From Sphingomonadales bacterium (GTDB taxonomy: Bacteria > Pseudomonadota > Alphaproteobacteria > SMXS01): a stretch of 42,958 nt of DNA. Made by a program: the position numbers and the translations under genes. Where the stretch lies: the NCBI GenBank assembly GCA_022844405.1, contig JALHLV010000034.1, positions 1-42,958 on the forward strand, given 5' to 3'. Position 1 is the first letter of the stretch; every line of letters begins with the position of its first letter. Shown here one piece after another: positions 28,365 to 32,384 of this stretch. The notes under the pieces were generated by a model. It was given only the letters and a program-made list of their open reading frames with translations. It was not told where the DNA came from and made no database searches.

Positions 28365-28463
28365 ATATGATATTAGAATTGATCCAAACTGCTCGCCACA
28401 CCGTAAGAATGGTTGTCGGTTACCCGCACCACCGCAGGAGGGAGCGACAGTAGGAGGTCCGTC

Positions 28464-29357
28464 ATGGATCTGAGCCCGCAGAGAATCGATCAGCGCCTCG
28501 TAAAGGCAGCCACGGATGCCCGCCTCCTCGGCAAGGAGGAGGAATTCGAGCTCGCCCACCGCTGGCGCGACAACCGCGACCACGAGGCGCTGCAGCAGTT
28601 GATGTCCGCTTATCTCAGGCTGGTCATCAGCATGGCGAGCAAGTACCGCCATTACGGCCTGCCGGCCAACGACCTGGTGCAGGAAGGCTGCCTTGGATTG
28701 ATCCAGGCCGCCGACCGGTTCGAGCCGGAACGCGACATCCGCTTCTCGACCTATGCGAGTTGGTGGATCCGCTCGGCGATCCAGGACTATGTGCTGCGCA
28801 ACTGGTCCATCGTCCGCACCGGCACCACGGCGGCGCAGAAGAAGCTGTTCTTCAACCTGCGCCGGCTGCGCAGCCTGATCGGCCAGGATACCGGCAACGA
28901 CAGCGCCGCGCCGATCTCGTCCGAAACCCGGCGCCGGATCGCCACCCAGCTTGGCGTCAAGCAACAGGAAGTGGACTATATGGAGGCCCGCCTGTCGGGC
29001 GGCGACCAGTCCGTCAACGCGCCCGTCGGCGAAGAAGGCGACAGCGAGTGGCAGGATTACCTGGCCGACGACCGCGCCGTGCCGGAAGAAGCGGTGATGA
29101 ACACCCACGACACGGAAATCCGTCTCGGCTGGCTGAAGGAGGCCATGGAGACGCTGACCGAGCGTGAGAAGCTGATCATCCAGGAACGGCGGCTGGGCGA
29201 GGAATCGGTCACCCTGGCGGTACTGGGCGACCAGCTCGGCATCAGCAAGGAACGGGTGCGGCAGATCGAGCACCAGGCGCTGGGCAAGCTGCGCAAGGCG
29301 CTGATGCGCCTCGTCGGCGGCGACCCGCACCGCGTCGGCCTGATCCCGTCAACCTGA
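28464..29357 (+). CDS. rpoH: RNA polymerase heat-shock sigma factor RpoH (sigma-32)
   Basis: A 297-residue group-3 sigma factor. Region 2 has DLVQEGCLGLIQAADRFEPE (70-89) and RFSTYASWWIR (93-103); the RpoH box QKKLFFNLR is at 125-133, distinguishing it from RpoD and RpoS. Region 4 has the helix-turn-helix GISKERVRQIE. It directs transcription of chaperones and proteases; one of the paralogues in many alphaproteobacteria also serves oxidative stress. Which paralogue this is cannot be told. TAGGAGG nine bases before ATG 28464 decides the start. Confidence 0.95.
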   Translation: MDLSPQRIDQRLVKAATDARLLGKEEEFELAHRWRDNRDHEALQQLMSAYLRLVISMASKYRHYGLPANDLVQEGCLGLIQAADRFEPERDIRFSTYASWWIRSAIQDYVLRNWSIVRTGTTAAQKKLFFNLRRLRSLIGQDTGNDSAAPISSETRRRIATQLGVKQQEVDYMEARLSGGDQSVNAPVGEEGDSEWQDYLADDRAVPEEAVMNTHDTEIRLGWLKEAMETLTEREKLIIQERRLGEESVTLAVLGDQLGISKERVRQIEHQALGKLRKALMRLVGGDPHRVGLIPST

Positions 29358-30533: not shown

Positions 30534-30610
30534 GCGCCCGTAGCTCAGCAGGATAGAGCACAGGATTCCTAATCCTGGGGTCGTGGGTTCGAATCCCGCC
30601 GGGCGCACCA
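30534..30610 (+). tRNA. tRNA-Arg (anticodon CCT)
   Basis: A 77-base cloverleaf. The acceptor stem GCGCCCG pairs with CGGGCGC, followed by A73 and an encoded CCA. The D-arm has TAGCTCAGCAGGATAGAGC. The anticodon arm CAGGA-TTCCTAA-TCCTG gives anticodon CCT, reading AGG. The T-arm has GTGGGTTCGAATCCCGC. All stems are complete. Confidence 0.97.
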
Positions 30611-30833
30611 TTTCAGAACAATCTCAGCACCGCTCAGAGGCCGGACGCCTACCGGGAACGCCGGCAAACGGCGGACGCTGGACGTCGAGGGCCGAGGAAG
30701 GCCATCAGCGTATTGGGCTCGCCCCTCCTCACGCGACTTCTCGCCCGGTCCGAAACCAAGCCCGCGGCACAGCCGTTAGTGCGTTGCGGAGCCCGCGACC
30801 ACTCTCGACCGTGCCTCGGAACCAGCCCGCCGG

Positions 30834-30860
30834 AGGCCCCACCTGGCGGGGCTTCTTTTT
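30834..30860 (+). terminator. Terminator-like hairpin downstream of the tRNA
   Basis: GCCCC pairs with GGGGC around ACCTGGC, followed by TTCTTTTT. Alternative pairing of GCCCGCC upstream with GGCGGGGC is possible. It lies about 225 bases past the tRNA and just before the convergent zinc-ribbon gene. The gap 30611-30833 otherwise holds nothing I can support. Confidence 0.55.
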
Positions 30861-30869
30861 CGGTACGCG

Positions 30870-31055
30870 CTACCCGCCGCCGCCGGCCTCGTCGAGGATC
30901 GCGTCCGCCCGGGACCATCTATGCTCCCGGCCGCATTCGGGGCACGGCAGCGTCTGGGCGCCGAACCTGTATGATTCGAAAGTCTCCCAGTTGAGATTGA
31001 TGCCGGTGTAGACCTGCTTCCCGGTGTCGGGGCACTCGATCAGCACTCTGGGCAT
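30870..31055 (-). CDS. Small zinc-ribbon-like protein
   Basis: A 61-residue protein with two cysteine pairs spread over its length: CPDTGK near residues 8-13 and CPECGREH near 43-50, suggesting a zinc ribbon (the first knuckle has only one Cys). TGINLNWETFESY is a conserved-looking core. Short proteins of this pattern are common in alphaproteobacteria; their function is unknown. GGAAAGGACC precedes ATG 31055. The longer in-frame ATG 31184 would cross the divergent promoter region and is rejected. Confidence 0.65.
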   Translation of the reverse strand: MPRVLIECPDTGKQVYTGINLNWETFESYRFGAQTLPCPECGREHRWSRADAILDEAGGGG

Positions 31056-31234
31056 GGCTTGGTCCTTCCTTTCGAACGACACGCCTCGCCTGCGGACGAG
31101 CATAGCATATACGTCCGGTTCCGGGCGCCGGTTCCTGGTAGGATTCGGGTAAAGAAGACAAATAACCGCACGGACAGAAACCAATTACCCTCGGCTGAGT
31201 TTAATGATGGAGAGGAAGAAAGGTTAACGACGTC

Positions 31235-31390
31235 ATGCACGACAACATCTCATCGGAAAAGGATGCGCTCTACAGGGTCGTGCCAAATGATGGAGATCTG
31301 ATCCGCAACCTGCATCAGCTATATGATTGCGTCTGCGACGAACCGGTGCCTGAATACCTGATGAATTTGCTTCAACGGCTGCCCCTGTAG
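31235..31390 (+). CDS. NepR-like anti-sigma factor, isolated
   Basis: A 51-residue frame from ATG 31235 to TAG 31388, too short for routine gene calls. The last 30 residues (NLHQLYDCVCDEPVPEYLMN then LLQRL) fit the NepR core, L..LYD.V..EPVP..L..LL..L. NepR holds the stress sigma factor EcfG until the response regulator PhyR binds it. It usually neighbours phyR and ecfG, and neither is in this window, so this would be a lone paralogue. An AGAAAGG lies 11 bases before the start, slightly far. Base composition is more AT-rich than nearby genes. Confidence 0.55.
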   Translation: MHDNISSEKDALYRVVPNDGDLIRNLHQLYDCVCDEPVPEYLMNLLQRLPL

Positions 31391-31562
31391 CCGGCCCTGT
31401 TGGCGCCTATTGTTTTGGTTTCTATCGCATCGCGGTCGCCGCGGACGCGAGTCGGGTCGCGGCGGGCGCCACAAAACCCCGACTTCAGGCCGCATTCCGG
31501 TTTTCTTCGTCACCGCGCACTCTATAACAAGACTCGGGAAGACTTTCGCGCCGAGGACCATC

Positions 31563-32384
31563 ATGCCCATCCGTCGTCTCTGCATTCCGCTGTTGGCCGC
31601 GACGGCCTTGCTCGCCCTGTCCGGGCCCGCCGCCGCCTGGTCGCCGGAAGGCCATCAGGTCATCGCCCGGATGGCGGCGCTGTATCTGACCAAGAACGCC
31701 AAGGCGCAGGTCGAGGAGCTACTGGGCGCAAGCGCCCCGGCCGCCATGGTGAAGGCGTCCACCTGGGCCGACGAGATCGCAGCCCGGCGCCCGGAGACCA
31801 AGGCCTGGCACTATGTCAACATTCCCATGGCCGAGGGCAAGTACAACGCCGCGCGGGACTGTCCTGGCGGCAATTGCGCCATCGCCCGCATGGCCGCCGA
31901 CATGAAGATTCTGGCCGACAAGACCCAGCCGGCGGAGAGGCGCGCCGAAGCGCTCAAGTTCCTGATCAATCTGATGGGCGACATCCACCAGCCGTTGCGC
32001 TGTGTCGACGACGGACAGGACCATGGCCGCGACGTGAAGGTCCAGTTCGGCGACAGGAGCACCACCCTGTTCGACCTCTGGGAAACCGACATGCCGAAGA
32101 GCCTGCAGGGAACCGTGGACCAGGTCGTCAGCCGACTGAGCGGCAAGATCAAGCCCGAACACCGCAGGGCGTGGGCCTCCGGCAGCCTGATCAAGTGGTG
32201 CGAGGAGTCGGCCGGTCACGCCAAGGTGAACATCCACGACGATTTTCGCGGCGCCGCGCGGCTGTCCAACGGCGAACTGCTGGTGAGCCTGGAATATCCG
32301 GATGTGAAGCACCGGCTGGCATCCGAGCAGATTTCCCGCGCGGCCGTGCGCCTGGCGGCGGCGCTGAACTTTTCGCTTAAATAG
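31563..32384 (+). CDS. S1/P1 nuclease, secreted
   Basis: A 273-residue zinc nuclease with a signal peptide ending in GPAAA. The mature chain starts with Trp26 (WSPEGHQVIARMA), whose free amino group and carbonyl bind zinc, as in P1 nuclease; His31 is a second ligand. DIHQPLRCVDDGQDHGRD and FDLWETD hold further ligands. It degrades single-stranded DNA and RNA and can dephosphorylate 3'-nucleotides in the periplasm or outside, perhaps for phosphate salvage. The in-frame ATG at 31410 would remove the signal peptide from the start and is rejected. Confidence 0.92.
   Translation: MPIRRLCIPLLAATALLALSGPAAAWSPEGHQVIARMAALYLTKNAKAQVEELLGASAPAAMVKASTWADEIAARRPETKAWHYVNIPMAEGKYNAARDCPGGNCAIARMAADMKILADKTQPAERRAEALKFLINLMGDIHQPLRCVDDGQDHGRDVKVQFGDRSTTLFDLWETDMPKSLQGTVDQVVSRLSGKIKPEHRRAWASGSLIKWCEESAGHAKVNIHDDFRGAARLSNGELLVSLEYPDVKHRLASEQISRAAVRLAAALNFSLK

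Follow-up and report, generated by a model that had tools for sequence, protein, structure and literature searches.

What does a NepR-like frame of 51 codons do on a contig that carries neither phyR nor ecfG? The window, meaning the whole stretch of 42,958 nucleotides analysed here, is the entire contig C34 of a Sphingomonadales genome (G000; 3.78 Mb, 41 contigs). The initial annotation had pointed to a 51-residue frame containing the NepR core, and to the lack of phyR and ecfG nearby. Both observations hold: the list of open reading frames has a 51-codon ORF on the + strand, from ATG at 31235 to TAG at 31390, and profile and protein searches of the contig gave no phyR or EcfG-type match. The frame, here called nepR2, and its surroundings are:

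30534-30610, + strand: tRNA-Arg (CCT), upstream neighbour, found with ARAGORN
30870-31055, - strand: small gene, divergent from nepR2, whose product has CPDTG and CPECG motifs; kept in the four-genome alignment
31177-31201, + strand: putative ECF-type promoter GAAAC-N16-AGTT (-35 at 31177-31181, -10 at 31198-31201)
31218-31223, + strand: putative ribosome binding site GAAAGG, 11 bases ahead of the ATG and the same in four genomes
31235-31390, + strand: nepR2, a 51-aa NepR-family protein (profile match at residues 24-49; predicted helices at 19-31 and 40-47)
31563-32384, + strand: S1/P1 nuclease gene (Pfam PF02265, 153.8 bits), constant downstream neighbour, after nepR2 in G000, G001, G002, G003 and G005

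Family membership and conservation of nepR2

The profile search that the annotation had proposed gave a match, narrowly: against Pfam PF18557 (NepR; curated cut-off 25.7 bits) the protein scores 26.4 bits (E 5.5e-6, residues 24-49), and it is the sole match at E<=10 in G000, where all first-look candidates were scored. Weaker support comes from the NCBIfam equivalog model NF051865, which bears the name of sigma T (16.8 bits, below its cut-off of 100), and from the PDB chains 2lfw_B (E 0.22) and 5uxx_B (E 1.5). The predicted model, which is of low confidence (mean pLDDT 66.7, pTM 0.29), places EPVP (36-39) between the two helices. In architecture the protein has the NepR core and an N-terminal tail, the C-terminal tail being almost absent. 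In an ungapped alignment with 2lfw_B, L26 and Y30 correspond to L32 and Y36 of S. melonis NepR, H27 to R33, and L42 to M48; L26 and Y30 are invariant across all five aligned nepR2 orthologues.

The frame is also kept in relatives, so that the second outcome by which the annotation would have been refuted, a frame lacking conservation, did not occur. When the protein was searched against 60 related genomes, its own included, matches at E<=0.1 were found in nine, with strong ones in three of the same genus. These syntenic orthologues are 61-65% identical when aligned (66% in G003, 64% in G005 and 62% in G001 by the search itself), and each precedes the same S1/P1 nuclease gene as in G000. Among the four genomes pS (0.53-0.77) exceeds pN (0.22-0.29) in all six pairs; dN is 0.26-0.36 over the six, and dS, finite for five of them, is 0.93 or more in each of those. 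By these substitution patterns, nepR2 is under purifying selection in the four genomes. An ORF found at the same locus in three relatives, with low dN relative to dS, is more than chance, and 31235-31390 is a real, conserved NepR-family gene.

Profile scores for the other copies vary: PF18557 gives 24.3 bits for the G001 orthologue, below cut-off, and no match at E<=10 for that of G005. In G002, a 71-codon NepR-type frame (31.6 bits) lies between tRNA-Arg and the nuclease gene, and is divergent, only 28% identical. In G006, inspection by eye showed no nepR2-like frame ahead of the nuclease gene, and that nuclease is only 49% identical; the G004 contig begins within the nuclease, so the place of nepR2 there lies outside that contig. 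This makes five of the seven genomes of the genus, G000 included, that carry nepR2. G007-G009, of the same family but outside the genus, gave no NepR above cut-off; a full phyR and such a nuclease (at E<=1e-10) were likewise not found there. That the frame is decayed or non-functional could be argued from its shortness, its score barely above the Pfam cut-off, the divergence in G002 and the place seen empty by eye in G006; with dN low against dS in four genomes, the frame open in five, and the promoter-like and ribosome-binding blocks conserved, decay is a very improbable account of this gene.

The AT-richer stretch of the annotation exists at the gene itself (GC 0.52 at 31100-31400, against 0.66 for the whole window), but not directly after the tRNA gene, where GC is 0.64-0.71 (about 30600-31100). 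The tRNA-Arg gene also adjoins nepR2 in G002 and G005; it was not found in the examined nepR2 stretches of G001 and G003. A 54-base piece reaching just past its 3' end recurs at 96% in G001 (L070:4901-4954), on a contig that has no complete tRNA; an element integrated at tRNA-Arg could leave such a trace. The small CPDTG/CPECG protein has no Pfam match at E<=0.001. A sigma-70 family factor with regions 2 and 4, RpoH-like by eye (28458-29357, + strand), lies near nepR2 in G000 and G002.

The canonical locus in relatives and in G000

A canonical nepR is present in G001, G002, G003, G005 and G006 (46.5-50 bits with PF18557; 47.8-50 in the first four), divergent from phyR or from a phyR start. Full-length phyR occurs in G001, G002, G005 and G006; in G003 (L066:14131-14336) it keeps 8 codons and then gives way to unrelated sequence, which runs to the nearby contig end, and no other phyR was found in that genome at E<=1e-6. 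An ecfG gene precedes the locus in G001, G002, G003 and G005, and in G001 and G002 a sensor kinase gene lies between ecfG and nepR/phyR, assigned to the HWE type by eye rather than by profile. All four relatives with nepR2 also carry canonical nepR, with an intact phyR beside it in three (G001, G002, G005). Because four genomes of the same genus carry both genes, nepR2 is a paralogue of canonical nepR. The canonical NepR of the genus (L023, L063-L066, L071) shares the core LYDxVxxEPVP..LL..L with the window protein, which is 40% identical to that of G001; the canonical gene is beside phyR and its product keeps the C-terminal tail, whereas the window protein is without it. To this extent the second anti-sigma protein suggested by the annotation is confirmed: it is of the NepR family, and a second, unlinked copy.

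A search of G000 for the canonical locus, also proposed there, recovered only part of it. An ecfG gene lies at C20:76822-77352, its DNA 83% identical to G005 ecfG; neither canonical nepR nor phyR turned up in the assembly, all first-look candidates having been scored. The phyR query gave three matches at E<=1e-6, covering the receiver part only. Among the other candidates for PhyR, L013 scored 13 bits; six were rejected, since profiles place L002, L003 and L004 with the ECF sigma factors, while by eye L005 and L011 are ECF-like and L012 resembles a LuxR-type regulator. L003 (C10:113664-114251) is the second of the EcfG-like sigma factors and shares 52% identity with the product of ecfG, with no NepR match beside it in the whole-genome PF18557 search; G000 has further ECF factors besides these two. 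When four G000 ECF proteins were compared with 29 NepR loci of the class (two of which, L021 and L120, are the same place), 25 loci gave an ECF match, and at 23 of them the ecfG product scored highest, L003 outscoring it at L122 and L123; the remaining four loci had no ECF match.

Contig C20 stops 115 bases after ecfG, within the end of a repeated insertion sequence. This end (115-119 bases) occurs at five places in G000, all of them contig ends (C8, C12, C20, C21, C23; L131-L135), with C20 and C8 ending in the same 119 bases in the same sense, and it is absent at E<=1e-5 from six relatives. The insertion sequence is probably a recent multi-copy element in G000, and its shared end accounts for the contig breaks; it leaves unexplained why most of the roughly 24 kb after G005 ecfG (C3, about 138354-163010) was not found. 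Most of the DNA following ecfG in G001 and G005 was likewise not found in G000 (40 candidates scored of 490, 555 and 365 per search, so that absence is not proven). Two stretches of it match elsewhere, about 0.6 kb on C29 (81-84%) and C10:52825-54075 (87%), and the next shared gene run lies near the end of C8. The missing locus may equally reflect an assembly gap, with the piece unassembled or unbinned, or a deletion. One possibility is that the insertion sequence removed the kinase, canonical nepR and phyR, leaving the unlinked NepR2 as the only NepR restraining EcfG, under PhyR-free, EcfG-driven negative autoregulation alone, and that G003 is a second case. This is unlikely; if phyR is truly gone, the genome would show, as an experiment of nature, whether a brake of this kind is able to assume all of the control.

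The promoter-like block upstream of nepR2

Of the last 100 alignment columns before the nepR2 start, 28 are invariant in the four genomes, and 17 of these fall in the runs AGAAAC, GAGTT and GAAAGG; three runs this long appeared in none of 20000 column shuffles, a control that ignores relatedness. The first two runs are spaced as GAAAC-N16-AGTT, which has no other match in the window (0.04 expected). Published EcfG promoter consensus sequences are GAAC-N16,17-C/GGTT (PMC4814048) and, in Rhizobium etli, GGAAC-N16-CGTT (PMC3892343), and the commonest -35 boxes reported for Sphingopyxis granuli are GGAAC or GCAAC (PMC7083833). The window block differs from the consensus in two core positions, having GAAAC instead of GGAAC and AGTT instead of CGTT, and AGTT is absent among the -10 boxes named in section 11 of PMC7083833. 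The exact form GAAC-N16-CGTT does occur upstream of nepR2 in G002, at a similar distance, as well as upstream of ecfG in G000, G001, G002 and G003; it was not found upstream of G005 ecfG. The 13-kb G002 locus has three consensus matches against 0.66 expected, and at least three also occur in 12 of 200 shuffles. The other four genomes have an invariant variant, AAAC-N16-AGTT, before nepR2. These motifs make it likely that EcfG controls nepR2 in G002, and plausible that it does so in the other four genomes.

The two departures from consensus, invariant as they are in four genomes, might instead mean that nepR2 belongs to another sigma factor or pathway, the block being the promoter of a non-EcfG sigma factor; the further ECF factors in G000 would offer candidates. 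Against this are the exact EcfG motif found at a comparable position in G002 and the ORF lists around nepR2, in which no ECF gene was seen by eye. Another sigma factor is thus an improbable owner of the gene, and the part of the initial annotation in which the protein joined one finds no support.

Possible function of NepR2

Two extra NepR proteins that lower the general stress response have been described. In S. melonis Fr1, NepR2 binds PhyR and exerts negative feedback under the control of EcfG; changing L32/Y36 of NepR or L31/F35 of NepR2 weakened activity, and the NepR2 changes R32A and M46A, at the positions that match R33 and M48 of NepR, did not reduce it (PMC6599016). MexAM1_META2p0735 of Methylobacterium extorquens AM1 is EcfG-controlled and stress-induced and binds PhyR, and its overexpression raises stress sensitivity (PMC4814048). 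Like META2p0735, nepR2 of the window encodes an additional NepR homologue and has a putative EcfG-type promoter; with S. melonis NepR2 it has in common a second NepR-family protein, the key Leu and aromatic residue (here L26 and Y30) and likely EcfG control. There are differences as well. S. melonis nepR2 (#1448) adjoins ecfG (#1447), whereas the window gene is unlinked, and PhyR binding has been shown for the S. melonis protein (PMC6599016) and is a prediction for that of the window. M. extorquens AM1 has six EcfG paralogues (PMC4814048); G000 has two EcfG-like factors, with no phyR found in the assembly.

Because of these precedents, and because L26 and Y30 match the key residues, nepR2 is read as a second NepR that probably serves as an EcfG-induced feedback brake on the general stress response, of a type already described in other bacteria. 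Active EcfG would transcribe nepR2, and the small two-helix protein would then damp the response, limiting or ending it rather than starting it. The most likely route would be for NepR2 to occupy the sigma-like domain of PhyR, the main NepR going back to EcfG; NepR2 may also hold EcfG directly. In the relatives PhyR is the likelier partner, with EcfG as the alternative; in G000 a role as PhyR decoy cannot be assumed, since no phyR was found in its assembly. The annotation's suggestion that the protein sets a threshold fits both the promoter-like block and the published NepR2 regulators.

The threshold could also be set more directly, NepR2 being a second anti-sigma factor for EcfG (C20) or the EcfG-like factor (C10), with PhyR binding secondary, in the manner of Sinorhizobium meliloti RsiA1/RsiA2. 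The complete NepR core, the presence of two EcfG-like factors in G000 and the failure to find phyR in its assembly are all compatible with this, and both S. meliloti NepR proteins bind the sigma factor (cited in PMC4814048). META2p0735, however, bound PhyR and no EcfG (PMC4814048), and S. melonis NepR2 bound PhyR, the EcfG test having failed with unstable proteins (PMC6599016). Direct action on the sigma factor is a less likely alternative to the feedback brake acting through PhyR.

How common such genes are was surveyed in 241 genomes of the class (requested completeness >=95%), taken to be Alphaproteobacteria because ecfG, nepR and phyR are present. A NepR match at E<=0.001 was found in 47, ten of them with two or three, which is a lower bound since PF18557 misses the second copy of G005. 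The 29 class loci examined reduce to 28 distinct ones, mostly best-scoring (L120 repeats L021), and only L117 is without phyR and ecfG in the examined flank of about 1.5 kb; these counts exclude L022, a weak match (E 0.07) within a protein of 253 aa whose gene adjoins an ECF-like one. Extra NepRs are fairly common, and unlinked ones less so. Among the papers listed for "orphan" NepR, or NepR "without PhyR", none deals with such a case, judged by title and abstract opening. With the window gene there is one more lineage where selection maintains, apart from the main locus, an additional NepR whose promoter is likely of the EcfG type; this supports the view that the general stress response repeatedly includes a feedback brake of its own. 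Outside the class, L006-L009 (one Deltaproteobacterium, three Planctomycetota) were rejected as NepR, being 199-429 aa and methyltransferase-like by eye; they share the string IVCDEPVPEHL among themselves, and part of it with the nepR2 protein.
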